NCBI GenBank assembly: GCA_026391255.1
Contig: JAPLDU010000085.1
Coordinates: 28,891-92,890, forward strand
DNA from: Bacteroidia bacterium
GTDB taxonomy: Bacteria; Bacteroidota; Bacteroidia; Bacteroidales; JAPLDU01
DNA length: 64,000 nt
Direction: 5' to 3'
Of the stretch, positions 2,146 through 52,225 are shown piece after piece; position 1 is the first letter of the stretch; each line of letters begins with the position of its first letter. A program made the position numbers and the translations under genes. The notes under the pieces were generated by a model. It searched no databases. It saw nothing but the letters and a program-made list of their open reading frames with translations, and was not told the origin of the DNA.

Positions 2146-2811
2146 ATGCTGGCAAAAGACCTGATATCAGAAAATATTCCTGTTTTAAAACCATCCGACA
2201 CCGGAGTCCATGCGCTTAGCCTGATGGATGTATTCAGGGTTTCGCATCTTCCAATTGTTAATGACAAAGAGTTCCTGGGTTTAATATCTGATACTGATAT
2301 TGCAGAATTCAACAATGCCGGCGAAACCATCGGCAATCATAAATTATCTCTGTTAAGACCTTATGTGATGCACGACCAGCATATCTACGAGGTGATTGAA
2401 ATATGTTCCCGCCTGAGATTGACGGTTGTACCTGTTCTTAACGGAAAAAATGAATTCATGGGTGTCATTACCCAGAACGGTCTGATGTACCAGGTTGCCA
2501 ACCTGATGGCAGTCAGTCATAAAGGTGGGATCATTGTCCTTGAACTCAATATGAATGATTACTCACTGACAGAAATAGCCAACATTGTCGAGAGCAATGA
2601 TGCCAAAATACTGAGCCTGTATATCAAATCACCTGCCGATTCAACAAAAATTGAGATTACGATCAAAACCAACAGAATTGATATGTCAGCACTGGTTCAG
2701 ACGTTTGAAAGATATAACTACAATATTAAATACATGTTTCTTCATAACAGTGAGATCGATGTAATGTACAACGACCGGCTGGAGGAGTTTCTCAGGTACC
2801 TGGAGGTTTAA
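2146..2811 (+). CDS. CBS domain-containing protein
   Basis: 221 aa; two tandem CBS-like motifs (HALSLMDVFRVSHLPIVNDKEFLGLISDTDI; YEVIEICSRLRLTVVPVLNGKNEFMGVITQ). Confidence 0.85.
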   Translation: MLAKDLISENIPVLKPSDTGVHALSLMDVFRVSHLPIVNDKEFLGLISDTDIAEFNNAGETIGNHKLSLLRPYVMHDQHIYEVIEICSRLRLTVVPVLNGKNEFMGVITQNGLMYQVANLMAVSHKGGIIVLELNMNDYSLTEIANIVESNDAKILSLYIKSPADSTKIEITIKTNRIDMSALVQTFERYNYNIKYMFLHNSEIDVMYNDRLEEFLRYLEV

Positions 2812-3822
2812 ATGAACAATTGAATTAGTTAAAGTCTGCCTTTAATGTTCAGAATTATGAATTCAGAATATCAATTAACGATTTTAGATTTTTGATGTGA
2901 CTGATAATCTTAAATCTAAAATCGTTAATCCTTGTTCTTAAATCAATCCGATGACTTTAAAGAAAGACATTGATTAACGTAACGCCAGGATTATTTTGAA
3001 AGTTCTGTTTGTTTCAAAATTATCAACCGTTATTTCTATTTTTGTAAGTACTCAGGATTAGATTGTAGGCTATTAGGCTGTAAGCTATAAGAATACGTAT
3101 CATGAAACAGAACAAATGGTGAAAACAGGAATATTAATTGAATTCATTTTTTCTAAAAGCCTGACAGTCTATAATCTAAACAACCTGAATAGTTACAATT
3201 AATTTTGTGTCAAAGTTATGAGTTTTTCAAATCACTTTTAAAATATCGGTTACTAATTTTCAAAATGGGTACTAAGGCCCCGGGACTTTAGTAGTAGCGA
3301 ATTGACACTACTATTCATGGTTCTTCCGGATAATGCTTAGGTATTGATAAAAAAGACTCTTTCAGAAAATGCGTTTTTTAGTCCCGTCAGGGACGACATA
3401 TCGGTAGAAATGTATCTATTTAAATGTCAAGTGCCGTAGGTACGATATATTTTTCAATCATTTCCTTGAAATAACATGAATCTGAATTGATTGGATGTAC
3501 ATTACATTTTCAATATTTCGTTCCTGACGGAACTTTAATTTTGATGATGGTCATTGATTTCTACCGATATTATGTCCCTCCGGGACAATACTTGTTTGTA
3601 AAGTTGTTCAATATTTCGAATACGTCAACTAATAATGAATATTCTTTGGATCACCCCTCTTATTAACTTACTTATTCACCCACGCATTTACCGGAAGAAC
3701 TCTATTTATTTTAGCCAATGGAATCTTTATCAAATTTACGAATGATTTTGTCATAATGTTCACTGCTATTGCTTTTAACACATGTTAGAACCAGTGCCCG
3801 AAATATACTTTGACCAACAATT

Positions 3823-4278
3823 TTATAACCATGGCAGTAATACTTTCTTGCAGTATTCTTCCCATTTTTGACCAAATAGTTGTGATAATATTTTTTCTTC
3901 TTCCGGTGAATATATCCTGGACCCAATATATACTATAATTCCTATAACTGCACCTAACCATGTATTGAAAATAAATCCAACCCAGGGAAGTACGAGAAGA
4001 GCTACTCCAGTATATAATGGATGCTTTATAATTGAATAAGGTCCGTTTGTTATAAGCTCCTTCCTTGGAATCTTTGTCAATATTAAAACAACAGACCATA
4101 TCCAGTTTATTATTCCCGGAACAAGAATAATAATTGAAACTACCAGCAGAGACAGATGCGGACCACCAACATTGAAGAAAGAAGGGAAAAAAACATTTAA
4201 GGTTAACCCGATTACTAAAAAAGGCAATGTTAATAATCCGATCTTCTTTCCACTACCTACAAGAATAGACAATTTCAT
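3823..4278 (-). CDS. Isoprenylcysteine carboxyl methyltransferase-like / phospholipid methyltransferase family membrane protein
   Basis: 151 aa; multi-TM; LITNGPYSIIKHPLYTGVALLVLPW...EEEKILSQLFGQKWEEYCKKV is typical of the ICMT family. Confidence 0.82.
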   Translation of the reverse strand: MKLSILVGSGKKIGLLTLPFLVIGLTLNVFFPSFFNVGGPHLSLLVVSIIILVPGIINWIWSVVLILTKIPRKELITNGPYSIIKHPLYTGVALLVLPWVGFIFNTWLGAVIGIIVYIGSRIYSPEEEKILSQLFGQKWEEYCKKVLLPWL

Positions 4279-4510
4279 ATCTTGATCTCCTTTATTAAAT
4301 TCTTAAATGTTCGGTATTCATAACTGCCCGCCGCTTGGCCTCAGTGACGGTTTTTTTATTTATTAGGTAAACATTTACCAGCAGCTATAAGCAGTATCGG
4401 ATTGCGTAGAATTTGTTTTTCTCATTTGTTTGACATTTCTGCGTGCTGGAATGCTGAATTGCCTGAAACCACCGCCATTGCTAATGAGCGGCTTGTTGGG
4501 CGCCGGAATT

Positions 4511-4672
4511 CTATTGTCCCACAGGTTTCAATCCACTATTTTTAATTCTTAATTCGATATACTTTTGCAATTCTTCAAATGACATATTAATCGTCTCTAC
4601 ACTAATTTTATCTCGTATATCACGCATCATTTTTACTGCGTCAAATGTTTTGTTATTTTTATTCGTCTTCAT
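4511..4672 (-). CDS. Small (53 aa) putative antitoxin downstream of PIN-domain gene
   Basis: Manual translation: MKTNKNNKTFDAVKMMRDIRDKISVETINMSFEELQKYIELRIKNSGLKPVGQ*. The start codon overlaps the 3' end of the PIN gene. Not in the supplied ORF track (short). Confidence 0.65.
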   Translation of the reverse strand: MKTNKNNKTFDAVKMMRDIRDKISVETINMSFEELQKYIELRIKNSGLKPVGQ

Positions 4673-5123
4673 AATTTATTAAATCTTTGGGGCTCCTTAT
4701 TTCAATCATTGAATATCCAAGCCGTAAATTAATAGAATTATAACTCTTTATTCTGTCAAGATTTACAATATGTTTAAAATTCCAACTTACAAGTACATCA
4801 ACTTTATTAATCGTAGCTAAAGCTATGTGCCTACAATCTTCTAAACATGTTAATCCAACTACTTTCTCTGAAATATATGTATCTGCAAGTTTCATAGACT
4901 CTTCTGTCAATGAAACCCGTTCAAAATTGTTTCTGGAATAATTATATAAAAGATTTCTTACATTAGCTGGTGCATCAATTAATTCAAGATCAAGAAGATC
5001 AGAAACAACAAAAATTATTTCCTTTCTTTCTAAACGTTTAAAAAGTTCTTGGGTAGCTTCTTTGAATTCTTCATCAAAGTACCCGCCTACTATTGAAGTA
5101 TCTATGTAAATTCTCTGTTTCAT
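4659..5123 (-). CDS. PIN domain-containing protein (putative toxin)
   Basis: 154 aa; IYIDTSIVGGYFDEEF at the N-terminus, conserved acidic residues, ...LTCLEDCRHIALATINKVDVLVSWNFKHIVN. Confidence 0.82.
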   Translation of the reverse strand: MKQRIYIDTSIVGGYFDEEFKEATQELFKRLERKEIIFVVSDLLDLELIDAPANVRNLLYNYSRNNFERVSLTEESMKLADTYISEKVVGLTCLEDCRHIALATINKVDVLVSWNFKHIVNLDRIKSYNSINLRLGYSMIEIRSPKDLINYEDE

Positions 5124-5127
5124 TTAG

Positions 5128-5135
5128 CAAAAATA
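5128..5135 (-). promoter_or_regulatory. Bacteroidetes-type -7 element (TATTTTTG) just upstream of PIN gene
   Basis: Reverse complement tttcgTATTTTTGctaaATG. Confidence 0.45.
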
Positions 5136-5330
5136 CGAAAATATTTATTATTTCAACTGGTCTGCTGTGTTTTTATTGTTTGCCCGCAACGCACACCGCT
5201 TGGCCTCAGTAGCGGTTTTGATTTAATGCCAGGAAAATCGAATCCGATTGTGGTTTATTTAATACCATACCCTCTGAATTGCTGATAACTATTGGGCTAA
5301 ATGGTTTGTAATGGCTTGTTTAGGTTTCTA

Positions 5331-5525
5331 TTATTTTAGGATATCGTCAATATCGATATCGGCTTGTTTCAGTATTGCTCTTAATGTTCCTTCGGGCATG
5401 TCGCCGGAATGATTTGGAACTGTAGTAAATCGATTTGTTTTTGGATTATACCAGATTTCGTGGCTTCCGGCAGCTTGTCTATAAAACTCAAATCCGTTGT
5501 GCTTCGATAAGTTTTTTCGCAACAT
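5331..5525 (-). CDS. hicA: HicA-type toxin (type II toxin-antitoxin)
   Basis: GFEFYRQAAGSHEIWYNPKTNRFTTVPNHSGDMPEGTLRAILKQADIDIDDIL matches the HicA pattern (GSH..., PNHSG...GTLR.ILKQA). The track ORF extends to 5600; an internal Met is the likelier start. Confidence 0.85.
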   Translation of the reverse strand: MLRKNLSKHNGFEFYRQAAGSHEIWYNPKTNRFTTVPNHSGDMPEGTLRAILKQADIDIDDILK

Positions 5526-5652
5526 CTTTGGCAATTTCAATAGTTTCAGCGATAGTTCTGCCTTGAGCAACGAGACCTTGAACATAATCAGAAGTGGCAA
5601 GATAAAACCCTTCCGGTAATTTTTCTATATGCAGATTGACAATGTGTTCCAT
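5488..5652 (-). CDS. hicB: HicB-type antitoxin
   Basis: MEHIVNLHIEKLPEGFYLATSDYVQGLVAQGRTIAETIEIAKDVAKKLIEAQRI; HicB-like, directly upstream of and overlapping hicA. Confidence 0.75.
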   Translation of the reverse strand: MEHIVNLHIEKLPEGFYLATSDYVQGLVAQGRTIAETIEIAKDVAKKLIEAQRI

Positions 5653-5704
5653 AATATTTCTTTTTTTGGCAAAATAGTGAAAATAATTCAAAATGTTGTT
5701 TTTA

Positions 5705-5845
5705 ATGAGCCATAACGGTCGAGGCTTGCTATTCGGCGGGGCGAATCGAAGCCGTTTCCTGTCCTAATACATCGAGGCTGGATATAAGAACTGTACTGTC
5801 CTAAAACCCCACTGCCCCGCTGATAGTATGCCTTTGTTATTCACC
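5705..5845 (-). repeat. attC-like imperfect palindrome (A)
   Basis: Minus-strand arms AATAAC-GGC-CTAT-GCGGGGC and (reverse-complemented) ATAAC-GAGGC-CTATT-GGCGGGGC, with GTTATGGC at the distal end. Confidence 0.5.
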
Positions 5846-5853
5846 GGGCGATT

Positions 5854-7482
5854 TTATTCTTTGATAAGTTTCTTTACTATTATTTCTTTTTCTGTTGTCC
5901 CTTTAATAAAATAAATTCCATTTGCAAGGGCTGAAATGTCTATAGTTGTTTGATTTTCGGCATTGTTTATTGTTTTTATTAATTGTCCTTGTAAGTTTAA
6001 AATTTCTATATCTAATTTTTGCGGATTAATGATCATAACGTTTTCTTTTGCGGGATTTGGATAAATTACTAATGAACCTTCATTGACATGAATTTCATTA
6101 ATCCCTACAAGAGTAGATAATTTTGCTAAGAAAGTATCATAGCTGCCATTATTAATAAGTGTGTTACTGCCGAAGTTGAGCGTGTAATTGCCAAAGTAAC
6201 CTGTCAGGTAGATATTGTTGCCTCTATCAGCGCAAACGCCCATGCCATATTCACTGCCCTCGCCAATGCTTTGTGCAAAGAGCGCATTACCATTTGCATC
6301 ATACTCCGCTATGAAAATGTCATTATTGCCAACATTGTTGTTGATAACAGGAATACCTCCAAAGTTAAGATAGGGGCTTGTAAAATAACCCGTGACAAAA
6401 ATATTGCCGCTTAAATCAGTGCAAATGCTTTGGCCAAAATCAGAATTTGTTCCTCCAGGGCTTCTTCCCCATAGTGCATTACCGTTTGAATCATATTTGG
6501 CTACAAAAATGGTAGAACTTGAAAATGGTAAACCAGCCAAAGTATCGCTCCCGAATGCAACTGAAGTGCCAAAGTAGCCTGTCAAATAAATATTGCCATT
6601 TGCATCGGCAGAAACACTACTACCAATGGATTCCCCGCTTGGGCCTTTTGCCCAAAGATAATTGCCATACGCGTCATATTTAGCTATAAATATATTGACC
6701 CAACTACCTGACAAAGTATCATTTCCGAAAATGGCAAGGTTTTGAAAACCTCCAGTTATATAAATGTTTCCGCTTATGTCTGTGCAAATACTTTGTTCTC
6801 TACCATTAGCGACCAAACCACTAGCTATCTTTTTAACCAAAATAATATTGCCATTCTTATTATATTTTACTATAAAAGCACCTTGGCTTAAAGTATATTG
6901 ATCGAAAATAATACTAGAACTACAAGAAACAAATATATAAACATTGCTCAAAGCATCAGAACAAATTCCCCAGCCGATGCTGCTTGCACCATTGTGATTG
7001 ATGCCATTTTTAGCCCATTGTACATTGCCTACGGAGTCATATTTTACTAAAAAAACGTCCTGACTGCCAAAGTTATTTAAAGTGATCATATCGAATAAAA
7101 TGGAAGGACTTTCAAAATATCCCTCTATATATACATTATCATTTGCATCGGTGCAAATTCCGTAAGCATAATCGTAGTTATTACCGCCCCCACTTTTTGC
7201 CCAAAGCACATTTCCGTTCGCATCATATTTTACTACAAAGATGTCAAGTGTTCCTGCATTTTTATTGTTTAAAGTATAACTTCCGAAAGTAATTGCAGTG
7301 CCCTGAAAAGTACCCGTTATATAAACATTCCCTTTTAAATCGGTGCAGGTGGCATTACTGTATTCATTACTTATACTTCCTGTGCTTTTCGCCCAAAGCC
7401 AGTTAGAAGTTTGTGCATTTGTTATATTGCTTAAAAAGCATAAAGAACCAATCAATGTCAAAAGTAAAATTGTCTTTTTCAT
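5854..7482 (-). CDS. SBBP (beta-propeller) repeat protein with T9SS C-terminal sorting domain
   Basis: 542 aa; signal peptide; repeated GNVYITGTF...FVVKYDANGNVLWAKS units; C-terminal IYPNPAKENVMI...GIYFIKGTTEKEIIVKKLIKE. Confidence 0.9.
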   Translation of the reverse strand: MKKTILLLTLIGSLCFLSNITNAQTSNWLWAKSTGSISNEYSNATCTDLKGNVYITGTFQGTAITFGSYTLNNKNAGTLDIFVVKYDANGNVLWAKSGGGNNYDYAYGICTDANDNVYIEGYFESPSILFDMITLNNFGSQDVFLVKYDSVGNVQWAKNGINHNGASSIGWGICSDALSNVYIFVSCSSSIIFDQYTLSQGAFIVKYNKNGNIILVKKIASGLVANGREQSICTDISGNIYITGGFQNLAIFGNDTLSGSWVNIFIAKYDAYGNYLWAKGPSGESIGSSVSADANGNIYLTGYFGTSVAFGSDTLAGLPFSSSTIFVAKYDSNGNALWGRSPGGTNSDFGQSICTDLSGNIFVTGYFTSPYLNFGGIPVINNNVGNNDIFIAEYDANGNALFAQSIGEGSEYGMGVCADRGNNIYLTGYFGNYTLNFGSNTLINNGSYDTFLAKLSTLVGINEIHVNEGSLVIYPNPAKENVMIINPQKLDIEILNLQGQLIKTINNAENQTTIDISALANGIYFIKGTTEKEIIVKKLIKE

Positions 7483-7837
7483 AATGTCTTTTTTAATTTC
7501 TGTTTGTGTTTCGGCTATTTTTTTTTCGCCTTATGCCTAACTATCTTATAGATTCACCTTCCCCCCATTTCATTTCCAATATGGATGAGTAAGATAATTT
7601 TTATTCCTTTATATTTTCAAAACCTTTAATATTCATTCTCCTCAATATTTGCTTTTTCTATGTCTTTGCTTTGTCAATTACCTATTATATTTCTGATAAG
7701 TCCCGGTCATCCTGAATTTGGTAAAACAAAAATACAAAATATTTTTGAGGATAATTAAATCTTTTTCTTCTATTATTATTCTGACTTATTATATCTAAAA
7801 TCTGACTGTTCGAGTATTCGTCCGCCGGAGGTGGAGT

Positions 7838-10762
7838 TCAAAAGCGCAGTTCCTTCAGGGCAGCAACTCTTGCAACCGTTTCAATGACTATGGCAGCGAG
7901 GGCTGCGCCATAATCGAGATCAATATTTTCCATGGTGTCTTTTGTATCGTGATAACCTGATCGGTTAATATCATAGTTTTCCATAAAAAGCACGACAGGC
8001 ATTCCGGCATCGGAAAAAATCTGGCCATCGGTATTGTAAAGGCTACTGCTGTGATTATATTTTGTACGTACTTCGCCTGTCAACGGGAGATGCCTGGCGG
8101 GTTCAGGAATGGTGATCCCGTCGCTGCTTCGCACGCCGCGCTTGCAATGATTTCTTTCAGGAAGGGAATTCCATTCATCTGTCCCGGAATTCCAGGCCTG
8201 GTTTGCCATATGTGCCTGGTACGACAGGAAAACGGATTGTGCACTATTACCCGGAGATATCTGAAAAATATCTTTGTCTTTTTCATTGTTGTGTGCAATC
8301 ATATCAGAAACAAAAACCCCGGTGATAGTCATTCCTGACAGATCAATTATACCGTTATTCTCAATATGGAGTTTTAAATCTTTATTTTTTACGGCTTCGC
8401 AAAAATGCCGTGCGCCAAGGCAATCGGAAGGAAATTCCTCACCGGTAAGATGTAACAGCCATACATCGCGTTCGAGAAGATTGTTTTTAGCCAGGTCAAG
8501 AAATACAGAACATGCAAGCAGCAGAGCGGAAGTGACAGAATGATTATCATCCGCGCCTGCGGCCGACAAGCGGGCGCCCGAACCGCCGCGTTCCTTCTCA
8601 TAAATATCCTCCATGTATGCCGTATCATAGTGATCGGCCATCACAACTGCCTCTCCGCGGTTTTTCCCGGGGATAACCACCAGGATATCTCTCTCCGTTT
8701 CATGTTCATTCTGATTATTTTTCCAGCCGGTAAACTGGTTAAAGCTGAAATCAGTCTGCCAGTTAAAAGGCAGTTCGCCGCAATATGCCATGCCTTTCAT
8801 TCCGGCTTTTTCAATTTCCGCGCGATGACATGAAATGAGAAAATCGCCGAGTTGCAAAAGGTCTCTTTTATGGTGCTTCAGTTGATGCAGGGTAGGTTCG
8901 TCATCAACAAAATCGGCATTGTCTTTATTGATAAAATTTCCATGGGATAATGTGAAAATATCATTCCAGAATGACTCTTCAAAAGCACGTGTGGCGGTAT
9001 ATCGATAAGTAATGCCCTCCGGAGGTTTTTCATTATATTCCTGTTCAATAATTCTTTCCAGTTCAACTTTCATTTCCTGTCCGGCTGCCGGATCATCTGA
9101 TAATCCGGGCAAGGAAGACAACCATTGTTCCAAAGTTTCATTCTTCCCAATGTGAAGAAGGCGCCGTGCAAAACTTCCGGGAATCCTGTTTTCTGCAAAA
9201 AGTTTCTTCTGGGATAACAGGTTAATAATATTCATGGTGGTCTGATGTGCGAAGCTGTCATGAGAACTCTTGAAATTTTTCAGGGCTGATAAATAAAGAG
9301 GTCTTTGCATTATCCGCGGCCATAATTCAATTACCTGTGATGCTGAGGCATTTTCACACTGGTATGCGGAAATATAACCATGTAAAGCATCAGGCAGAAT
9401 CCTGATTTCATCAGTTGTTTTCTTAACATAAGCAACCAATGGCCTGTGCCAGTATATCTCATGATTGTCAATGCGCATCGGAGGGAAGAAAAACCGGTAA
9501 CCGAATAAACCTCCCTGTTTAATTTCATTTTCAGCATTTAAAATTTTTGCGGGAGATGCATTCGGACCGTCAAGTAACAGGGAATAATCTTTTCTCCAGA
9601 GCTGGCAATTTCTTGCCATGGGTTTACCATATAATCCCATAGTGTCAAGGTCCGTACTGAAAAGGGTTTCGGCAATTTTAACCAGACGATGCGGATAGGT
9701 TAATTCATCCTCGTTTTTGTGAATCTTTTGCCACCGGTGAGTCCGATGATAGGTGTCAAGAATAAGTTCATGACGAACATCGGATGCTTTCACAGAGGGA
9801 TGAGGTTCATAAATCCAGCCTGATTGCGGCACCCGGATTCCTTCATGGCCGCTGTGCCTGGTTACCATTCTCTGCATCGGGATCTGAGTTGCAAAAGGCA
9901 AGCCGGCCTGAAGTTCCCGGTAATTGTTCATGCCCCGGAAAACAAGACTGCCGGGAAAAGGGAGCAGAACTATCTTTCCATCAAGATATTTTTTCCTGAT
10001 CAGATCAGGCAGCAGACTGAACGGACGAAAGCTCAGTATGAATTTTACATTTTCAAAAGAATCATTGTCATTAATCAGAAATGATTTTGCCCGGGTCGGG
10101 ATTAAATCTGTATTTTTTGTTTCCAGAATCCTGAAGCCAATTCCCGATAACTGTGATCTGTCAGAGACTTTCACATGATGCGTCTCTTCAAGGATTTGTG
10201 AGATGAATGTAATGAAATTCCTTTCCCTGATTTCTTCTGAAGCTTCGGCCATAAAGCATTTCCAGAAAACCTGTTCAGGATCGTCAATGCTGTTGCCAAA
10301 GAAGGTCCAACGTACACGACCCTTGTCATCCTGAGTGCGCGACAGCATCATCGGGAGAAAGACAATGTATTGTTCGTTTTTCAGCTTTCCTGCGTTTTTC
10401 GCAAGATCATCAGGCCAATAAGGATTATTGGTAAGATTTTGGTTGCCATGGCCGCCAATATGATATTCGGGCAATCCTTTCCCAAGTTTAATCAGATGTT
10501 GCATTACCTGGGTCCCGATATTTTCAATGCCTGGTTTCAATTCCAGCTCTTCTTCCATTTCCGTGATATTCCAGCCATTCAGATTATCATCAGAAAAAAT
10601 ATCGTGATCGGTAAAAACATGATCATTGCAATCTATAACCGGAGAAGGCATAAATTCAGAATATGCGGGCAACCTGAATTTAATTCCCTTTGCATCATGA
10701 GTGATTTTATTTCGTAGTTCTTTCCAGCCTTGTATCTGGGTTTTATCAACCGGTGAATTCAT
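7838..10762 (-). CDS. Large protein with C-terminal M28-like metallopeptidase domain
   Basis: 974 aa; VVMADHYDTAYMED...SAAGADDNHSVTSALLLA...VWLLHLTGEEFPSDCLGARHF; long N-terminal region not recognised. Confidence 0.8.
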   Translation of the reverse strand: MNSPVDKTQIQGWKELRNKITHDAKGIKFRLPAYSEFMPSPVIDCNDHVFTDHDIFSDDNLNGWNITEMEEELELKPGIENIGTQVMQHLIKLGKGLPEYHIGGHGNQNLTNNPYWPDDLAKNAGKLKNEQYIVFLPMMLSRTQDDKGRVRWTFFGNSIDDPEQVFWKCFMAEASEEIRERNFITFISQILEETHHVKVSDRSQLSGIGFRILETKNTDLIPTRAKSFLINDNDSFENVKFILSFRPFSLLPDLIRKKYLDGKIVLLPFPGSLVFRGMNNYRELQAGLPFATQIPMQRMVTRHSGHEGIRVPQSGWIYEPHPSVKASDVRHELILDTYHRTHRWQKIHKNEDELTYPHRLVKIAETLFSTDLDTMGLYGKPMARNCQLWRKDYSLLLDGPNASPAKILNAENEIKQGGLFGYRFFFPPMRIDNHEIYWHRPLVAYVKKTTDEIRILPDALHGYISAYQCENASASQVIELWPRIMQRPLYLSALKNFKSSHDSFAHQTTMNIINLLSQKKLFAENRIPGSFARRLLHIGKNETLEQWLSSLPGLSDDPAAGQEMKVELERIIEQEYNEKPPEGITYRYTATRAFEESFWNDIFTLSHGNFINKDNADFVDDEPTLHQLKHHKRDLLQLGDFLISCHRAEIEKAGMKGMAYCGELPFNWQTDFSFNQFTGWKNNQNEHETERDILVVIPGKNRGEAVVMADHYDTAYMEDIYEKERGGSGARLSAAGADDNHSVTSALLLACSVFLDLAKNNLLERDVWLLHLTGEEFPSDCLGARHFCEAVKNKDLKLHIENNGIIDLSGMTITGVFVSDMIAHNNEKDKDIFQISPGNSAQSVFLSYQAHMANQAWNSGTDEWNSLPERNHCKRGVRSSDGITIPEPARHLPLTGEVRTKYNHSSSLYNTDGQIFSDAGMPVVLFMENYDINRSGYHDTKDTMENIDLDYGAALAAIVIETVARVAALKELRF

Positions 10763-10810: not shown

Positions 10811-11275
10811 AAACTGGTTTGAATTATAATTATTTCTGTTATATAATTCATATTCAACTTCTTTTGCATGCCCAAAAGAACTAAGCGAAGCGGTCTCACG
10901 AACCCCGACCTGTCGGGGTGAGTAACCAAAAGGGCACCACGAACGAGAATACAACATGCACTTTCGCACAGGCCAACGCTATCGGGTCTGTGCATGTTGT
11001 ACTCCACACCGTTCGTGGACGGCTAACGCACGGGGCTTTCATGGTCAAATTTATGTAAAAAGAATATGGGCAAAGTAATTTTTTTCAAAATTTTCATAAT
11101 AAATGAGTGCGAAGCATAAAATATAAAAATCCTTATCAACGCATTGCTGTTTGAGTGAAGTCGAGGAACGAGACGGAACGAGTTCAATTCGTTAAGTCTT
11201 TTTTGCATACTTTTTGTGACGACAAAAAGTATGAAGAATGAAATACTGAAAATCATCTGGTAAATATTCAAACAT
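10811..11275 (+). mobile_element. MITE-like modular element family A, copy A1
   Basis: aaactggtttgaatt...cttcttttgcatgcccaaaag...accccgacctgtcggggt...ccacgaacg/cgttcgtgg palindrome...gtgcgaagcataaaat...ctttttgtgacgacaaaaag...aaaatcatctgg. Recurs at 25.7, 33.3, 37.7 and 55.2 kb. Confidence 0.7.
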
Positions 11276-11346
11276 AGGGACTAAATATTGATTCAAATTT
11301 AAATACCATATTCCAATATAGGTCAGTCAAAAATGGAAAGTTTCAG

Positions 11347-13149
11347 TTATTTTGCCGGATATCCCTGTGCCGAAACGTCCCAGGTAAGCTCAACATCCCA
11401 GTTTGAGCGTACTTTCACATCTTCCTTATAAAGAAGCACCTTTTCGGGTTGAAGTTTTTTAATGTAGTTTCCGGTGTCCCACTTTTTGTTCCAGTTGTCA
11501 TCAAAAATAAATTTCAGGTGATAGGTAGCCGGGTTAATATTATCAAATCTGACCGTGGTTCCTGAGTTTATAAATGCTTCCTTCAGAACAACATCTTTTT
11601 CATTCATTAACTGTACGATTCCGTTTGAACTCAGGTTATTGATTTTAAGAATGATATTTCCATAGAACTCTTTTTTCTGAAGGATAAAGGTGGATTTGAC
11701 GGTATCATTGGTATTACCGGCAATGTCGTGAAAAGTGCCGGGAGGAATTAATAAGCCATATCTCATTCCATCAGTCCATGTAGTTGAAAGTGTGTACCTG
11801 CGCAGCAAAAAGCTGTCCTTTTTAAACCTGAAGTGCAAAGGCAGTTGTATGGAATCAACAATATTATAAAGCTGGATTTTGGATGTATCAATGCTTTTTA
11901 CGGGTGCTGAAAAGTCGAAAATTATATCCTTGTCATAATCAAGCTTTTTCGATTTTTGAACACTGCAACCGGTTTTCAATACCACCGGTTTAGGGGTTTC
12001 ATGCTTTTTAATGGGTTTGGGTTTAAAGCCCAGAACAACCGTGTCCGTACGCAATTGTGCTTCTCCTGTTTCATTGTTCTTCCGGTAAGTTACCAGCAAC
12101 CTGATAGTATCGCGGCTTGCCACCAGGCTGTCAGTGATCCAGCAAATAATACTGTCGCGGGTTTTGTTGTATTCCGGACTGATCCAGTCAGCAGCAGGAG
12201 TAAAATTCATGGGATTAAAAACGGGGTTTTCCGTCAATGGCTGGTTAAAATACAAGTTACACTGGTTCCGGGCAGGCCTTTCGTGTTTGGTAAGTATCCG
12301 CTTCTTAGCAACCTCCTGAAACAAAGACAAACGCAGGTTTGCCGGGGCGAACATAGTGACGCTCACATTTCTGATACTGTCGTACCAGGCGGAATCGCCC
12401 ATCAGAACTTTGAGTGTATCTGCCTTTAAAGACAAAGCGGCTGTAGGTATGATAGGGTGATCAAAATATGCAATGGCTTCTGTTGGTTGATCAAAAATAT
12501 AATTGTTGTTATCGTCTTTGAGGGCAAACACTTTATAAGTATCTTTCCTGATATTGCTAATAAGAAAATCTCCTTTATCACCCGTACGGCTTACATAAAC
12601 AGGCAGTTCTTTAAGAGGCGCCGAATCGCTGCCTTCGGGATACAGCATAACCAGCACCTCTTTTTCCGGTTTGGATGTGAATGCATTGGTCAGAATCCCA
12701 CCGACCTGCAGGGAATCAATCATATTACCGGTCGAAAAAACAAAACGAAAATTTTTAAGTACGTTGCCTTCGTTCAGGTCGGAGATGGCATCCCCGAAAT
12801 TCAGAGTATAGGTTGTACTGTCACGCAATGGATTATTCAGGTCAATTACCAGGGTTTTATTCTTCATGATTATTTCCGGTTTTTTCTTTACCGGAGGTGA
12901 TACGATCAGTGCCTTGCTGATATTTTTCAACTGTACAAATTCATCAAAGGTGATTTTTATGACCTGTCCATGGAAATTTTTTGACTTGTCCGGAGGCTGG
13001 CTCTGAACCACCCTCGGCGGATCAGTATCTTTGACACCACCAGAAGGCATGCCCACATTGGCACAACTGTTTACCAGAAAAGCAATCAGGATGGTAACCG
13101 GAATGATCGCCGGTAAAAGGATATTGCCGTTTCTGAATTTGAACTTCAT
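11347..13149 (-). CDS. Ig-like (Big_5/SbsA-type) domain lipoprotein
   Basis: SCANVGMPSGGVKDTDPPRVVQSQPPDKSKNFHGQVIKITFDEFVQLKNI...; lipobox-like LVNSC after a hydrophobic stretch. The track ORF extends to 13218; MKFKFRNGNILLPAI... at 13149 is the likelier start. Confidence 0.85.
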   Translation of the reverse strand: MKFKFRNGNILLPAIIPVTILIAFLVNSCANVGMPSGGVKDTDPPRVVQSQPPDKSKNFHGQVIKITFDEFVQLKNISKALIVSPPVKKKPEIIMKNKTLVIDLNNPLRDSTTYTLNFGDAISDLNEGNVLKNFRFVFSTGNMIDSLQVGGILTNAFTSKPEKEVLVMLYPEGSDSAPLKELPVYVSRTGDKGDFLISNIRKDTYKVFALKDDNNNYIFDQPTEAIAYFDHPIIPTAALSLKADTLKVLMGDSAWYDSIRNVSVTMFAPANLRLSLFQEVAKKRILTKHERPARNQCNLYFNQPLTENPVFNPMNFTPAADWISPEYNKTRDSIICWITDSLVASRDTIRLLVTYRKNNETGEAQLRTDTVVLGFKPKPIKKHETPKPVVLKTGCSVQKSKKLDYDKDIIFDFSAPVKSIDTSKIQLYNIVDSIQLPLHFRFKKDSFLLRRYTLSTTWTDGMRYGLLIPPGTFHDIAGNTNDTVKSTFILQKKEFYGNIILKINNLSSNGIVQLMNEKDVVLKEAFINSGTTVRFDNINPATYHLKFIFDDNWNKKWDTGNYIKKLQPEKVLLYKEDVKVRSNWDVELTWDVSAQGYPAK

Positions 13150-14736: not shown

Positions 14737-14952
14737 AATTCAAATTTTTCCCGAATTAACAAACAATTTTCTTGTTGTTTGTGAAATTTGGCTTTTCTTT
14801 GCAGTGGATTGTGGAAAGATTTGATTGATTGCAACCACAGAAAAAAATGCTAAAGCAATTTTCTTTTCTGCATAGATCAAAAATCCCAACCCATCACAGT
14901 TTGCGGACTATTTCCGTATATTTTTTAGTTATTAACTGATAAAATTTTTAAT

Positions 14953-42231: not shown

Positions 42232-43698
42232 TCAGCCATTATTATCATCATCCTCCAGTAGACGGTATATTCCATGCGGAAGGCTGAAATAACGTTTACT
42301 TAATTCATCTGAATTGGACTTCAGGTCAAATATCACTTTCAGAAAAAGATTTTCCTGGTTCAGGTCAATTTCGTCAAGCTCGTTATTATTCACAATATAA
42401 ATTGTACGGGCGTCATCCGGTGAATCAAGGGAGCTGATGATAAGCGTTTCGATAGAGAATGCCCATGGTACCATCACATCCTCCATTTTTACCTTGCTCT
42501 TGGGAATCAGGAACTTTCTTTCATCAAAACGCTTTGTACTTTCTACCAGGTTTTTTATATAGGAAATACGTTCATGGTAAACCTTACCGATATTGTAAAT
42601 ATGTATAAAACTGACTGTTGCAATAATAATCAAAAATGATGTTTTCAGCCAGGCATTGAATTTTGCATTATAGATCAATTCATGAATAAAGGGCAGCAGA
42701 ATAAAATAATTGACTGTCATGAAGTCTTTTTCCATCATAATATTTGCATCACCCTGCCTGAATACAAAACAGGTTATGAGAAGAAACAGCATGACAGATA
42801 TGATGATCAGAGCTGCTTCAGCGATTTTCTTTTTAATGATCAGCCAAATTAATAATATTACGAGAATAATCTGTGGCATCAGGTAGATTGACCAGAGACG
42901 GCTGACAACCCATTGAGTACTGTAATACTGAAAGAACCCATGCAGGTTGTGGTACAGAGCGGAAATCTCCATAAGATGGCTTTTTTCATTGGAATCAGCT
43001 GCATACAGGATATTCTTAAGGAAATATAAAATCACAATAAGTAACAGCAGTGCATAATACCTGAATTGCCGAAAATATTTTTTATTGCACATATGGTACA
43101 TTACAATAAAAAATACAGCAAAAAGAGTGACCGGATGGCTGTAAACACTTAGGCAGATAATGAGAAAAGACGGGAGAAAAAACAGGACAGCCGGGTATTT
43201 TATATTCTTTAAATTATCGTAAAAATTCAGCCAGGCATAGAGTAATGTAGAAAAGACAAGACCCAGATGGGTTTCAGTTACCGGGTTATAAAAATTTTCC
43301 CACACCCCGATGATCAGGATCAGTGCGATAATCAACCCGGCGCCATCGCTTTTGAGCACATAAACGGCAATATTAAACAGCAGGTAGTATATCAGGATAA
43401 TTGAGACGGAATAAAGCATTACCACGGTTTTCAGCGAAAAGTGAAGCTTGATGGCCAGAACAGGCAACAATTGCAGCAACACCATGGTATCTCTTCCATG
43501 TTCGACAGACAGCCCGGCTGTATTCAGCATTCTAAAAATATAATAGGCAGTATCGGCATATACCATGCGTTCGAGGTAAAAGAACGCAGAAAAAATCAAC
43601 ATTATCAGGAAAATAACATGTCCGGTAATCCGATAGATTTTCAATGAAGTATTATTTTTTCTGAGCTTCAGCTCCGCCCACGATCTCGAGAATTTCAT
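42232..43698 (-). CDS. Hypothetical multi-pass membrane protein
   Basis: 488 aa; many TM helices; N-terminal codons overlap the atpG 3' end, so the true start may be downstream. Confidence 0.6.
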   Translation of the reverse strand: MKFSRSWAELKLRKNNTSLKIYRITGHVIFLIMLIFSAFFYLERMVYADTAYYIFRMLNTAGLSVEHGRDTMVLLQLLPVLAIKLHFSLKTVVMLYSVSIILIYYLLFNIAVYVLKSDGAGLIIALILIIGVWENFYNPVTETHLGLVFSTLLYAWLNFYDNLKNIKYPAVLFFLPSFLIICLSVYSHPVTLFAVFFIVMYHMCNKKYFRQFRYYALLLLIVILYFLKNILYAADSNEKSHLMEISALYHNLHGFFQYYSTQWVVSRLWSIYLMPQIILVILLIWLIIKKKIAEAALIIISVMLFLLITCFVFRQGDANIMMEKDFMTVNYFILLPFIHELIYNAKFNAWLKTSFLIIIATVSFIHIYNIGKVYHERISYIKNLVESTKRFDERKFLIPKSKVKMEDVMVPWAFSIETLIISSLDSPDDARTIYIVNNNELDEIDLNQENLFLKVIFDLKSNSDELSKRYFSLPHGIYRLLEDDDNNG

Positions 43699-44530
43699 TT
43701 GTAATTGAAGACTGGCGGGCTTTATTGTAATTCAGCCTCAGGTCATGTAATAACTCTGTTGCATTATCGGTAGCCTTGTGCATTGCAGTCATACGTGCGC
43801 CATGTTCGGCAGCATTTGAGTCAAGCAGAGCCTTGTAAAACTGGATTCTCAATGATTGAGGGATCAGTTCACGCACAATATTCTCTTTGGATGGTTCGAA
43901 TATATAATCATGTTTGAGCCTGGTTATATTATCTTTTTTCAGTTCAACAGGCAGAAATGTTTCAGTTGTGAGTAGCTGTACAGCAGCATTTTTAAACTGG
44001 TTATATACCAGCTCGATCCTGTCGTACTCACCACTCAGGAACTTTGCAGTTAATAAGTCAGCCAGTGTCACTATTTCTTCATAATCCAGTTTATCGAGGA
44101 TAGTATGGTAATCATATGTCACATCGATTTTTTTGAATCTAAGTAAATCACTTGCTTTTTTCCCGATGGTCAGGAAATCAACCCTATTATTTTTGAATAG
44201 TTCAGGGTATTTAACTGAGGCCAGACTGAGTGCTTTTCTGATGGCATTTGAATTGAAGGCTCCGCACAATCCACGGTTTGAAGTGATCAGCACTATCAGA
44301 ACCCGGTTGATCCCGCTCCTGCGTGAATAGTGATTATCATCAGGTGAATCGAGGCTTCCGGCAAGGTTGATGAGTATCTCGTGTAATTTATTGGCATAAG
44401 GACGCATCTGAAGAATAATGTCCTGAGCTTTGCGCAGCTTGGAAGCAGAAACCAGTTTCATAGCGCTGGTGATCTGTCTGGTCGAATTCACCGACGAAAT
44501 CCTGGTACGTATTTCTTTCAGATTGGCCAT
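43652..44530 (-). CDS. atpG: ATP synthase subunit gamma
   Basis: 292 aa; MANLKEIRTRISSVNSTRQITSAMKLVSASKLRKAQ; ...ARMTAMHKATDNATELLHDLRLNYNKARQSSITNEILEIVGGAEA. Confidence 0.97.
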   Translation of the reverse strand: MANLKEIRTRISSVNSTRQITSAMKLVSASKLRKAQDIILQMRPYANKLHEILINLAGSLDSPDDNHYSRRSGINRVLIVLITSNRGLCGAFNSNAIRKALSLASVKYPELFKNNRVDFLTIGKKASDLLRFKKIDVTYDYHTILDKLDYEEIVTLADLLTAKFLSGEYDRIELVYNQFKNAAVQLLTTETFLPVELKKDNITRLKHDYIFEPSKENIVRELIPQSLRIQFYKALLDSNAAEHGARMTAMHKATDNATELLHDLRLNYNKARQSSITNEILEIVGGAEAQKK

Positions 44531-44599
44531 TTGTCAAAAGAGCGTTGAATTATGAGTGATGAGTGATGACTTACGACTTACGACTTACGACTAATTTCC

Positions 44600-46180
44600 T
44601 TACACTTTATAAGTTGACGCCAGTTCAACTGCCAGTTTCTGGAGAGTATCAATAACCTGGTCAGTCAGCTGGCCCTGCCGTAATAATTCGAGAATGTCAG
44701 CATGCCGGATTTCGAGATATTCGAGGAATTTGCCTTCAAACTCCCTGATCCTGCCAACAGGCACATTCATAAGCAAACCCCTGGTACCACAGAAAATAAT
44801 AGCGATCTGCTTTTCTACAGAAAGCGGGGAATACTGATTTTGTTTAAGAATTTCCACATTTCTGGCTCCTTTACTCAATACTGCTTTTGTAGCAGCATCG
44901 AGATCAGAACCGAATTTTGCAAATGCTTCCAGTTCGCGGTATTGAGCCTGGTCAAGTTTCAGAGTGCCCGCTACTTTTTTCATTGCTTTCTGCTGGGCAT
45001 TTCCACCCACACGCGAGACTGAGATACCTACGTTGATAGCAGGGCGCACACCGGAATTGAAGAGGTTTGACTCAAGAAAAATCTGTCCATCAGTGATAGA
45101 GATCACATTGGTCGGGATATATGCCGAAACGTCACCTGCCTGGGTTTCGATGATAGGAAGTGCGGTCAGCGAGCCTCCTCCTTTTACCATTCCTTTGATT
45201 GAAGGAGGAATATCATTCATCTGGCGGGCAATCTCATCAGAGTTAATGATCTTGGCGGCTCTTTCAAGTAACCTTGAATGCAGGTAAAAGATATCGCCAG
45301 GGTAGGCTTCGCGTCCGGGCGGACGACGAAGGAGAAGTGATACTTCGCGGTAGGAGACAGCCTGTTTCGAAAGGTCGTCATAGATGCAGAGCGCCGGGCG
45401 TCCTGTATCTCGGAAAAATTCTCCGATGGCAGCACCGGCATATGGGGCATAGAACTGCAATGCTGCAGGATCTGATGCGGTGGCGCACACAACAACTGTA
45501 TAGTCCAAAGCGCCATATTTTTCAAGAGTCTTGGCTATTCCGGCCACTGTTGAGCCTTTCTGTCCGATAGCCACATATACGCAATAAACCGGGTTACCTT
45601 TTTCAAAATTTCCCCGCTGATTTATGATTGTATCGAGGGCAATAGCCGTTTTACCGGTCTGGCGGTCACCAATGAGAAGCTCGCGCTGACCCCTGCCGAT
45701 CGGTATCATGGCATCAATAGCCTTGATGCCGGTCTGTATGGGTTCGTTCACAGGCTGCCGGTAAATAACACCAGGTGCTTTCCGTTCAAAGGGCATCTCG
45801 TACAACTGTCCTGTTATTGGTCCTTTCCCGTCAATCGGATCACCGGTAGTATTGATAACACGTCCAAGAAGACCTTCACCAACATTAATATGTGCAATAT
45901 GGCTTGTGCGCCTGACGATATCGCCTTCCCTGATATCATCTGATGATCCCATCATCACAACTCCTACATTATCCTCTTCAAGGTTGAGAACAATTCCTTT
46001 CACCCCGTTTGAAAATTCAACCAGTTCATTCGACTGGACCTTTGATAAACCATAAACACGGGCAATTCCGTCACCTACCTGAAGTACAGTGCCGATTTCT
46101 TCAAATTCGGTACTGGTAGTAAGTCCTTCAATCTGCTGTTTTAAAATCTGAGATACTTCTGCAGGTTTAATGTCGTTCAT
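44600..46180 (-). CDS. atpA: ATP synthase subunit alpha
   Basis: [27 protein letters not shown]; start ATG at 46178-46180 (track start 46186 is a TTG). Confidence 0.98.
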
Positions 46181-46182: not shown

Positions 46183-46581
46183 TCAATATATTATTTCTTT
46201 AGGATCTAATGTTTTAGAATCAAGTTTTTTAAGGTTTTCATTCAAAGTAACAATGATAAGATCATATTTTCTGGCGCATTCAAGAAGGTAAGCATCCTCG
46301 TATTCAAGATTGTGGCCTTCCATTCCGGTGATTACCTGGTTAATTTCTTCAGGATTGAGAGAAACAACTGTGATTTTTCCATTATTGAACAGATCATTCA
46401 GCAGGGTAATGAGCTCGTTTTTCTTATCAAAACGCAACATCAGAAAAACAAGGGAGTGCAGGGATATATCACTGATAAACAATTCCCTGGTATATGTCTG
46501 AGCCAGGAATTCGGCAATTTCTTCTGACCTCCTTTGATTCAGCAGGCGTTCTATCCAGATATTTGTATCAACCAGGTACAT
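46183..46581 (-). CDS. PIN domain toxin-like protein (VapC-like)
   Basis: 132 aa; [18 protein letters not shown]...[27 protein letters not shown]. Confidence 0.85.
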
Positions 46582-46583
46582 AA

Positions 46584-46799
46584 TTATTTTTTACGTTCAA
46601 ATGCTTTTCTCTGTAATTCAATAGATGTATAATGCTTTTTCTGTTCGCACAGTGAGCCCGCCCAATTCTGATTCAGCATGCCGCCCTTGAATTTCTTACC
46701 TTTTTTTTCAATAAGAAAATCAATAAAATCATTCAACTCATCGTAATATTCGGCAGGTAATTTGGATAATTTCAATTCCAGTTCTTCGCTGACTCTCAT
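46584..46799 (-). CDS. DUF2281-like antitoxin
   Basis: 71 aa; KLSKLPAEYYDELNDFIDFLIEKKGKK...; adjacent to the PIN gene. Confidence 0.8.
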   Translation of the reverse strand: MRVSEELELKLSKLPAEYYDELNDFIDFLIEKKGKKFKGGMLNQNWAGSLCEQKKHYTSIELQRKAFERKK

Positions 46800-46801: not shown

Positions 46802-47359
46802 TTACATTTTTTTGTCAAAAGAGGTATTTACAATTTCTTTCCTGATATGGTCCAATTTTGCCCTGACACTGGAATTATATAACAAATCTTCCACCTGAAG
46901 GATAAAGCCGCCAATCAGGCTGACGTCTGTATTACGGGTAAGTTCCACCTGTGATTTGAACAGACCTGAAGTAATATCCGTTATCCCGAGGTAAATTGCT
47001 TCGGGCATAGGAACTGCTGTGCTGAAAACAACTGTTTTAATACCCTTATCTGCCCGGTAAATATCATTAAAATTCCGGCAGATGTCAGAAAGATGCTGTT
47101 CACGTTTATTCGTAGTAACGAGGCTAAGAAAATTCAGGCTCATTTCATTGATCCTGCCATCAAAAAGGCGGTGAAGGACCTGCTTTTTCGCCAGTGGTTT
47201 AACCACAGGATTTGAGAAATATGCATGTATCTCTTCAGATTCTTTTATAACCCGGTAAATCAGGTTAATATCATTTCTTACCGGTTCAAGCAGGTTCTTC
47301 TCTTTTGCCAGTAAAAACAAAGCTTTTGCGTAACGTACAGCTATTTTGCTCTGGTTCAT
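46802..47359 (-). CDS. atpH: ATP synthase subunit delta
   Basis: 185 aa; MNQSKIAVRYAKALFLLAKEKN...FSNPVVKPLAKKQVL...LIGGFILQVEDLLYNSSVRAKLDHIRKEI. Confidence 0.95.
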   Translation of the reverse strand: MNQSKIAVRYAKALFLLAKEKNLLEPVRNDINLIYRVIKESEEIHAYFSNPVVKPLAKKQVLHRLFDGRINEMSLNFLSLVTTNKREQHLSDICRNFNDIYRADKGIKTVVFSTAVPMPEAIYLGITDITSGLFKSQVELTRNTDVSLIGGFILQVEDLLYNSSVRAKLDHIRKEIVNTSFDKKM

Positions 47360-47536
47360 CTTTGAGTGATGAGTGATGAATTATGAGTGATGAGTTATAA
47401 GTTAATTATCATTTTATCGTAATACCTGAAAACATCTCTAATTAGTGTTAATCCATAAATTCAAATACTTCTGAATTCGTAAATCGTAAATCGTAATTCG
47501 TAAATCCTTGTTCTTAAATCAGTTTAAAGACTATCT

Positions 47537-48031
47537 CTAATTAAGATTGATCTCTTTTAACAAAGATTCAACATATTTCTTCTGTTCCTCGTCGCCGGCA
47601 AGTTCTTTCCTGAGTATTTTTTCAGCAATATCAAGAGAAAGGTTTGCCGCAATATTTTTAATTTCAGTAATCGCTGATGCTTTCTCATTCTCGATATTCT
47701 GGCGGGCAATCCCGATCAGTTTTCCGGCTTCTTCAGTTGCTCTGACTTTTGCTTCAGCTATGATCTGCTCTTTGGCTTCACGGGCTTCCTTTAGCAATTT
47801 ATCACGCTCAATACGTGCTTCCAATAGGATTTTCTCATTATCCGCCTGCAATTTCTTCATTTCTTCACGGGCGTTTTCGGCGGATCCAAGTTCATTTCTG
47901 ATGGATTCTTCCCTTTCTTTCAAAGCATTGAGAATAGGTTTCCACGCGAATTTACCAAGGATAAATACCACGATGGAAAACGACAACAACATCCAGAATA
48001 ATAGTCCTATGCCAGGTGTTACCAGTTCCAT
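47537..48031 (-). CDS. atpF: ATP synthase subunit b
   Basis: 164 aa; MELVTPGIGLLFWMLLSFSIVVFILGKFAWKPILNALKEREESI. Confidence 0.95.
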   Translation of the reverse strand: MELVTPGIGLLFWMLLSFSIVVFILGKFAWKPILNALKEREESIRNELGSAENAREEMKKLQADNEKILLEARIERDKLLKEAREAKEQIIAEAKVRATEEAGKLIGIARQNIENEKASAITEIKNIAANLSLDIAEKILRKELAGDEEQKKYVESLLKEINLN

Positions 48032-48117: not shown

Positions 48118-48305
48118 TATTTCTGAAATTTTGACGCGTTTTGCAAAAAATTCCAAAAAACAAATCACAAAAAACAAATAATAAACAATATCAAAATTTC
48201 AAATACGAAACAAACTAATTTGAATTTGTCATTTTGTTGATTGAAATTTATTTGCTATTTGTACTTTGAGATTTGAGATTTCTTGTTTGGTTCTGGCTCA
48301 TCCAG
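48118..48305 (-). repeat. Family B repeat, copy 4, between atpF and atpE
   Basis: gacgcgttttgcaaaaaattccaaaaaacaaatcacaaaaaacaaataataaacaatatcaaaatttc...ttcttgtttggttctggctc. Confidence 0.8.
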
Positions 48306-48331
48306 GTTTGGATTGTGAGATTGAAACATGT

Positions 48332-48586
48332 TCAGATGAACAGAATAAGCAGACAAACAACGATGGCAAAAAAGGCCACTCCTTCAACCAAGGCAGCAGC
48401 AATAATCATATTGGAGCGCACGTCACCAACCGCTTCGGGTTGACGGGCAATCGCATCCATTGCGCTACCGCCGATACGTCCGATACCAATACCGGCGCCA
48501 ATGACGGCAATACCGGCACCAATACCGGCGCCCATTTTAGCAATAGCCGCGCCTGCAAGCGCCTGTAATAATACTAATAATGTCAT
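48332..48586 (-). CDS. atpE: ATP synthase subunit c
   Basis: 84 aa; AGAAIAKMGAGIGAGIAVIGAGIGIGRIGGSAMDAIARQPEAVGDVRSNMIIAAALVEGVAFFA. Confidence 0.96.
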   Translation of the reverse strand: MTLLVLLQALAGAAIAKMGAGIGAGIAVIGAGIGIGRIGGSAMDAIARQPEAVGDVRSNMIIAAALVEGVAFFAIVVCLLILFI

Positions 48587-48616: not shown

Positions 48617-49696
48617 TTAATGATGTTCTTCTGTAGCCATACCAAAGTAAAGGGCAGATAATAATGTGAAAACATAAGCCTGAATAAAAGCTACCAATAA
48701 TTCGAGGAAGCACATGAATACTGTAAAAGTAACTGATAATAAGGAAATTCCATATCCTGCAAAGATGTTCATTTTTGCAAAGATGAATATCAGGCTGAAA
48801 AATCCAAGAGCAATGATATGCCCTGCCGAAATATTGGCAAAGAGTCGGACCATCAGTACAAATGGTTTGGTAAACAGACCGATGATCTCAACCACAGGCA
48901 TCAGCGGAACAGGGATTTTCAGCCACCAGGGAACACCGGGGGCATTAACCACATGTGTCCAGTAACTGCGGTTGCCACTGAAAGTAGTGATCAGAAATGT
49001 AATAATGGCCAGTACCAATGTCACGGCAATATTACCGGTAACATTAGCGCCTCCGGGAAATATCGGGATTAATCCCATCAGGTTATTTAACAGAATGAAA
49101 AAGAAAATACTGAGAAGGAAAGGCAAATAGTGCATGTATCTCTTTTTCCCAATCGATGGGAGGGCAATATCATCGCGGACAAAAATAATGACAGGTTCAA
49201 CCAGTGATTGTAAACCTTTTGGAGGAACAAGTTTATTGCGGGTATAGCTGGCGGCCACCGATAAAAATATCCAGACAAGCAATATCAGGCTGATAAAAAT
49301 GGCCATCACATCTTTGGTAATGGACAAATCCAATGGTAAATCGGAACTGCCGTCAGCAAGATGCTCCATGATCTTACCCTGGTTCTTTCCTTCTTTTATG
49401 ATCTCAAAATGATGATATACCTGCAGGCCATGATTAAAATTACCGGAAGAAAAAAGGTGCAAACCGGTGACTTTGCTGTAAAGGATTACCGGCAATGGTA
49501 TGCTGATATTGGTATTGCCAACTGTGGCGATATGCCATTCATGTGAATCGCCGATATGTTCCATAATGAATTTCCCGGGAGCAAAAGTCTCTTCGTTGCG
49601 CCCTGATTGCAGATTTGATTCCTCAGCAGTATATGCCAAACCAGCCGATAAAACAAAAATCAAAACAAGAATATATCTTATATGCCTAATTATCAT
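48617..49696 (-). CDS. atpB: ATP synthase subunit a
   Basis: 359 aa; C-terminal FVLMVRLFANISAGHIIALGFFSLIFIF...LELLVAFIQAYVFTLLSALYFGMATEEHH. Confidence 0.96.
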   Translation of the reverse strand: MIIRHIRYILVLIFVLSAGLAYTAEESNLQSGRNEETFAPGKFIMEHIGDSHEWHIATVGNTNISIPLPVILYSKVTGLHLFSSGNFNHGLQVYHHFEIIKEGKNQGKIMEHLADGSSDLPLDLSITKDVMAIFISLILLVWIFLSVAASYTRNKLVPPKGLQSLVEPVIIFVRDDIALPSIGKKRYMHYLPFLLSIFFFILLNNLMGLIPIFPGGANVTGNIAVTLVLAIITFLITTFSGNRSYWTHVVNAPGVPWWLKIPVPLMPVVEIIGLFTKPFVLMVRLFANISAGHIIALGFFSLIFIFAKMNIFAGYGISLLSVTFTVFMCFLELLVAFIQAYVFTLLSALYFGMATEEHH

Positions 49697-49947: not shown

Positions 49948-50406
49948 CTATTTGACAAGTGACATAAACTCATCCAAAGAGTAGGTATAATCAGGTGAAT
50001 GACCAACCAGATCAAAATTATTCACAACCCTGTGCAATTCAATTTTATTGATGGTATTGGTAACAACATCATATACTTTTATTGTATCATTTACATAAAT
50101 AGTGACCTTATCGGAGGTGTTTGTCCAGGTAAAATTTCCGTTATTGTTAAATGCGCCGGTACCAAGATCAAAAACCATGCTGTAATAACCTTTGCCATCA
50201 CTTCCGAAATCAATAGTTCCGGCATTTGCAGCAGAGCCACTCTCAGTCAGAAGAGGGGTATTATTCTGGTAAATGGTTTTCGTGTATATTCCGAAGGTCC
50301 AAAGCGCCTGTATCCGTTTTTGAAGCAACTGATCCTTGCTGCAACCGGAAGCAATCAGCACACATATTAAACAAAATATCTTTATAATTTTCATATAACC
50401 AGCCAT
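49948..50406 (-). CDS. Hypothetical lipoprotein
   Basis: 152 aa; lipobox-like CVLIASGCSKD. Confidence 0.7.
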   Translation of the reverse strand: MAGYMKIIKIFCLICVLIASGCSKDQLLQKRIQALWTFGIYTKTIYQNNTPLLTESGSAANAGTIDFGSDGKGYYSMVFDLGTGAFNNNGNFTWTNTSDKVTIYVNDTIKVYDVVTNTINKIELHRVVNNFDLVGHSPDYTYSLDEFMSLVK

Positions 50407-50494
50407 TTATAATAGATCGTCAAGTCAGGAAAATAAGTTCAAATGTAAAGCAAAAATAATATGTGTGCAAATCAATGTTTAGACTATAGACTGT

Positions 50495-50710
50495 AAGGCG
50501 CTTATTTCTGAATCTTGACGCGTTTTGACAAAAAATTCAAAAAAACAAATCACAAAAAACAAATAATAAACAATATCAAAATTTCAAATACGAAACAAAC
50601 TACTTTGATTTTTCGATATTTGAATTTGTCATTTTGTTGATTGAAATTTATTTGGTATTTGTTTTTTGAGATTTGTGATTTCTTGTTTGGTTCTGGTTCG
50701 TCCAGATTAG
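50495..50710 (-). repeat. Family B repeat, copy 5
   Basis: gacgcgttttgacaaaaaattc...caaataataaacaatatcaaaatttcaaatacgaaac...ttcttgtttggttctggttcg. Confidence 0.75.
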
Positions 50711-50802
50711 GAAAATGAAAATTATTTATTGTACTTACTGAATATGCCCAGGCTGATTTATCCATCCGAAGAATTAATTTTGCTGCTAAAACGGTTAAAT
50801 AA

Positions 50803-51888: not shown

Positions 51889-52225
51889 CTACTCAGGCCT
51901 TTAGGCTGTAGGCTTTTAGGAGTGATGAGTTATGAATTATGAGTTATGAGTTGTTACCTGATGCCTATTGCCCAACCTGGACAAGCCAGAACCTGACAAT
52001 AAATCACAAATCTCAAAATACAAATTACAAATAAATTTCAATCAAAAAAAATGACAAAATCAAAGTAGTATGTTTCGTTATTTGAAATTTTGATATTGTT
52101 AATTATTTGTTTTTTGTGATTTGTTTTTTGGAATTTTTTGCCAAAACTCGTCAAGATTCCAGAAATAAGGTACTAATACGTCTTCTAATAACTTACAGCC
52201 TAATAGCCTGAACAGTTACGAATAA
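51888..52225 (+). repeat. Nested palindromes: outer gtaact-caggc-ttaggctgta arms enclosing family B copy 6
   Basis: Outer taactactcaggcctttaggctgtagg / cttacagcctaatagcctgaacagttac; inner accagaacc(aaac)...tgccaaaactcgtcaagattc. Confidence 0.65.

Follow-up and report, generated by a model that had tools for sequence, protein, structure and literature searches.

Type II antitoxins bind their toxins and block them, and toxins with a PIN domain cut RNA. In Synechocystis PCC 6803, DUF2281–PIN pairs have been described whose toxicity in E. coli is neutralised by the antitoxin (PMC4963859), and the catalytic acid set of canonical VapC toxins has been defined (PMC3384007, PMC4229260). Restriction-modification pairs of the PabI family sit in the glutamate and histidine operons of Helicobacter/Campylobacter, and such operon-inserted pairs have been proposed to impose maintenance of the operon through post-segregational killing (PMC10273834, PMC4615327). 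In the open-licence literature, we found no report of a toxin–antitoxin pair in an ATP synthase operon. Here we describe a DUF2281–PIN pair between atpH and atpA, which we regard as probably a type II (VapBC-like) module that was inserted at this junction and is now an in-line passenger of the atp operon.

A DUF2281–PIN pair between atpH and atpA

The window, by which we mean the whole 64-kb stretch of DNA analysed, carries an ATP synthase operon on its minus strand. The Fo genes atpB (subunit a; 48617..49696; Pfam ATP-synt_A, 185 bits), atpE (subunit c; 48332..48586; ATP-synt_C, 61 bits) and atpF (subunit b; 47537..48031; ATP-synt_B, 101 bits) are followed by atpH (F1 delta/OSCP; 46802..47359; OSCP, 135 bits). 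Then come an ORF of 71 amino acids (46584..46799), an ORF of 132 amino acids (46183..46581), atpA (F1 alpha; 44600..46180; TIGR00962, 772 bits, and Pfam ATP-synt_ab) and atpG (F1 gamma; 43652..44530; ATP-synt, 320 bits). The smaller ORF encodes a DUF2281 antitoxin-like protein (PF10047, 39.0 bits against a cut-off of 26.5), with a weak NCBIfam match to VapB that stays under the cut-off; the larger encodes a PIN-domain, VapC-like toxin, possibly catalytically impaired (PF01850, 54.3 bits against a cut-off of 23.6). All three new junctions have gaps of 2 nt: atpH ends in TAA-TT before the ATG of the antitoxin ORF, the antitoxin ORF ends in TAA-TT before the ATG of the PIN ORF, and the PIN ORF ends in TGA-AT before the ATG of atpA, whose position at 46180 agrees with the N-termini of relatives. 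The preliminary description had given this order, strand and spacing exactly, and its proposal of a PIN/DUF2281 toxin–antitoxin-type pair embedded in the atp operon holds.

Since two adjacent intact ORFs exceed curated cut-offs in the antitoxin–toxin order of known pairs, the pair is more than a set of chance ORFs. It shows the features expected of a type II VapBC-like system: a PIN-domain toxin, a small antitoxin of known family directly upstream on the same strand at a distance of 2 nt, and recurrence of the same two-gene order in unrelated contexts, at about 20 further loci. No relative was found in plasmids, phages or IMG/VR, and no PDB relative was found by sequence.

A chimeric junction, which the preliminary description had raised, or contamination would be conceivable in a draft genome of 161 contigs (4.08 Mb). 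We consider it extremely unlikely, as the insert lies within a long contig (C42, which extends beyond both ends of the window) flanked to either side by atp genes, atpH is present in a single copy in the genome, and the flanking AtpH and AtpA proteins are both full length. The codon use of the pair is likewise host-like, as much so as that of the best host genes: it scores 0.169 per codon, where the 95th percentile of same-length host fragments is 0.123. The sole other close atpA-like gene is a paralogue, 50% identical, on another contig; it belongs to a second F-type ATPase-like set (G000:C65, 5381-11008), in which a more distant match to an ATPase subunit lies upstream of the paralogue.

The window contains several other features. 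Interspersed repeats with a 14-nt period (GAGTGATGAGTTATGA-like) occupy intergenic gaps at 44530-44601, 47354-47411 and 51910-51967, two of these three sites lying within the atp operon; the stretches 48139-48312 and 50524-50712 have a 95-116-nt repeat in common; and a SAM-II riboswitch lies at 14805-14863 on the plus strand (70.8 bits in Rfam).

The junction is compact and empty in nearly all relatives

Among same-order genomes with a readable junction, a sample in which the window genome is the only member of its family, atpH directly adjoins atpA in 102 of 104 (window genome counted). The projected distance between the two genes runs from about -1 to 174 nt at 28 same-order loci, its median is 37 nt in 75 further genomes, and it exceeds 300 nt in only two of the 104, the window genome (622 nt) and G069 (~1,530 nt). 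The genes were also neighbours at six named r220 loci, and a scan of genome contigs for AtpH yielded six relatives with a readable F-H-A region plus one partial, all from outside the family of the window. ORFs in the relatives were called mechanically, from ATG codons and with a minimum of about 55 amino acids, a procedure that short or unusual inserts may escape. At one further locus (L041 of G057, 2068-9001), atpH is the last gene of the atp operon and atpA is not downstream, suggesting a rearranged operon.

Because atpH directly adjoins atpA in 102 of the 104 genomes, the pair is an insertion into an ancestrally compact atpH–atpA junction. An empty site in relatives, together with the same orientation as the host operon, is what is expected of an operon-inserted selfish module. 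The module would have entered on the strand of the operon, with neither neighbour damaged. The preliminary description had suggested comparing these junctions and had offered either a recent, clean insertion or a maintained arrangement; the comparison bears out an insertion, of whatever age, and lends no support to a maintained functional arrangement, the other sampled genomes being without it.

Other inserts in respiratory operons

A survey of 95 atp operons revealed inserts of toxin–antitoxin or defence type in four genomes from three families, all on the strand of the operon. In G069, a GmrSD-like protein precedes atpF, a HEPN-MNT pair lies between atpF and atpH, the atpH–atpA junction holds an AAA ATPase (best PADLOC model NsnB, 181 bits) and a 68-aa ORF, and the atpA–atpG junction holds another AAA ATPase and a 193-aa protein. 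On this contig (L183, 1-12251), defence-type modules occupy nearly every atp junction, and an AlbA_2 protein lies just after atpG. In G173, of the same genus, an Mrr-like nuclease and a 193-aa ORF occupy the atpE–atpF junction, and the atpA–atpG junction holds HNH-like, AAA and 193-aa ORFs. In G047, from a third family, MNT-HEPN lies between atpF and atpH; its nuo operon (L285) carries MNT-HEPN between nuoC and nuoD (11195-11918) and, at the nuoL–nuoM junction, a KilA-N protein (4456-5352). The sole other clear gene insert in the 95 operons encodes an acyl-CoA-binding protein; it separates atpA from atpG in seven genomes of several families (L197, L204, L211, L215, L216, L218 and L287).

No such insert was seen in the S10-spc ribosomal operon of the four insert-bearing genomes, which served as a small control; the contrast with atp and nuo is suggestive and not a measured enrichment. 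With three atp lineages and one nuo case against none in these ribosomal operons, we tentatively raise the possibility that respiratory operons are recurrent nesting sites for toxin–antitoxin and defence modules in this order, seamless and co-oriented, with the supply of antitoxin or effector following transcription of the energy operon; the window pair would be one instance.

The diversity of these inserts also bears on whether the pair could serve the operon itself, the ATP synthase subunits being tuned through the dose of toxin or through translation. The tight packing between the delta and alpha genes is the one feature in favour of such a regulatory link, but the arrangement is missing from all other sampled genomes and unrelated modules occupy the same or other junctions elsewhere, which makes the link very unlikely. 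The effect on alpha/gamma stoichiometry proposed earlier is thus unsupported.

The subfamily occurs both nested and alone

Profile searches of order, class and phylum samples recovered further members of the subfamily, and antitoxin and PIN protein were found together every time the contig permitted. Some copies are nested. In two species of one genus (G211 and G409), the pair lies between pyrF and a DUF2851 gene, with gaps of 25/1 and 24/6 nt. In G678, which has three tandem pairs, and in G822 and G814, it follows ychF by 11-25 nt; one of these post-ychF copies has a GNAT gene 11 nt downstream, and G814 has a further copy behind a sugar-transport permease. Others, including those of G179, G173, G168 and G924, stand alone. 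As about 7 of 19 loci have a same-strand upstream gene within 33 nt and 4 of 19, from three lineages, have a closely packed neighbour at either end, with others standalone, nesting is common in the subfamily but not obligatory. The several standalone members imply that the module can have a promoter of its own elsewhere, and they rule out a subfamily that is always promoterless and operon-nested. The idea that toxins are broken more often in nested copies was likewise discarded, as broken ones also occur outside operons (G791a and G924).

The three tandem pairs of G678 (L173, 4774-6584) are identical at the N-terminal end of the antitoxin and the C-terminal end of the toxin and differ in the antitoxin C-terminus and the toxin N-terminus, as if the specificity parts had been diversified or swapped. 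In G409 (L170, 4764-4997) and G625 (L177, 4655-4900), the PIN protein has lost about 50 internal residues, DFDDAYQ among them, through in-frame deletions, and the antitoxin is intact; these represent natural losses of the toxin.

The toxin is atypical at its catalytic site

In 20 aligned relatives, D5, N7, E11, Q16, S37, D96 and Y98 are invariant, and the window PIN protein keeps D5, E11, Q16, S37, D96 and Y98. The position of the canonical VapC Glu is Ser or Thr in all 20 aligned members, the Glu being missing subfamily-wide. In the T-x-D-x-D-F motif, 18 of 20 retain D114 and D116, the exceptions being one truncated copy and the window copy, in which alone the DxDF motif reads N114-E115-N116-L117 (D114N, D116N and F117L). 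Set against the four acids D, E, D, D of canonical VapC, the window protein therefore has D5 and D96, shares the subfamily-wide absence of the Glu, and has Asn as the fourth acid. The preliminary description had named absence of the active-site acids as the observation that would count against it, and this applies to half of them. A single-sequence AlphaFold2 prediction of the PIN protein reached a mean pLDDT of 56.

By leave-one-out comparison, the window PIN protein is changed at 9 of 22 near-invariant sites, as against 0-2 in the 18 full-length relatives, in a family that was seeded with the window PIN sequence and is biased toward showing it as an outlier. The antitoxin has not diverged: none of its six most conserved positions is changed with respect to 23 aligned relatives. 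This asymmetry would fit a decayed relic that has lost nuclease activity and drifts as a pair, its frames open only because indels would disturb translation of atpA, and the natural toxin losses with intact antitoxin in G409 and G625 lend it a precedent. However, the two frames run without interruption for 203 codons in all, and the residues listed above are kept. The protein may also come from a neighbouring subfamily that has NENL as its normal motif. Asn likewise stands at the fourth acid of H. influenzae VapC1, which is active and uses a Glu three residues on (PMC4229260); the window protein has Leu at the place of that compensating Glu, and its nearest Glu is one residue on. A relic is possible, yet we hold it to be doubtful.

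Judged from these alignments, either constraint on the PIN protein has relaxed or the protein represents a neighbouring subfamily outside the sample. We lean towards weakened RNA cleavage, and the best reading is an atypical toxin whose catalytic activity is doubtful. For the passenger module that we favour, the antitoxin would still bind the PIN protein.

Expression and persistence of the pair

Given three consecutive 2-nt gaps and no good internal promoter match, the pair is likely to be co-transcribed and translationally coupled with the atp genes. No promoter match with up to one mismatch occurs between 46180 and 47540. Further upstream, an exact match to TTTG-N20-TAnnTTTG at 50440..50471 (minus strand) lies ahead of a 152-aa ORF (49948-50406) that itself precedes atpB. 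This match to the consensus is suggestive only as a candidate operon promoter, because the window contains 4 exact matches where 3.35 are expected by chance. Expression from the atp transcript is most likely, and the antitoxin would be translated just ahead of the toxin.

Such dependence on a strong constitutive operon could instead make the pair a sensor of transcriptional shut-off, an unstable antitoxin vanishing when host transcription stops, for example on phage infection, and freeing the toxin. Profile matching recognised no DNA-binding domain in the 71-aa protein, an absence that is weak evidence, and there is little room in the pair for a promoter of its own; several independent defence-type modules also sit in the same kind of place. 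Against this, the toxin may be weak, and neutral insertion would equally lead to nested placement, since an essential operon tolerates only inserts that are co-oriented and non-polar. We rate a sensor as unlikely. The passenger module that we prefer would be retained through addiction and through selection against excisions that disrupt an essential operon, and not through a role in ATP synthesis.

If these proposals are correct, selfish or defensive modules can settle inside an essential energy operon and leave it unbroken, and they do so repeatedly. The locus would then offer a testable setting for whether toxin–antitoxin pairs persist because they render the locus that hosts them indispensable, and for whether a promoterless module uses a housekeeping operon as supply line and alarm.

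Comparison with known systems

The DUF2281/COG5559–PIN pairs of Synechocystis (ssl2138-sll1092 and ssr8013-slr8014) have an antitoxin of the same DUF2281 family upstream of a PIN toxin; in both pairs the antitoxin relieves growth inhibition, and Slr8014, whose gene is annotated as PIN3, causes mRNA decay; unlike the window pair, they have not been reported within a core energy operon (PMC4963859). The VapBC systems of Shigella flexneri and H. influenzae likewise combine a toxin of PIN fold with a small antitoxin (PMC3384007, PMC4229260). Their VapC toxins retain the Glu (E42/E43) missing from the whole subfamily of the window PIN protein. The H. influenzae toxin resembles the window protein in the Asn at its fourth acid but differs in having the compensating E120. 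Canonical VapBC modules are autoregulated through a DNA-binding antitoxin, and the S. flexneri complex binds DNA in the form of a hetero-octamer, whereas the DUF2281 protein has no recognised DNA-binding domain. The PabI-type insertions are alike in being two-gene selfish modules that lie among the genes of a metabolic operon and share its strand. The window pair differs from them in being a toxin–antitoxin and not a restriction-modification module, in its host operon, which encodes the F1Fo ATP synthase, and in its 2-nt junctions.
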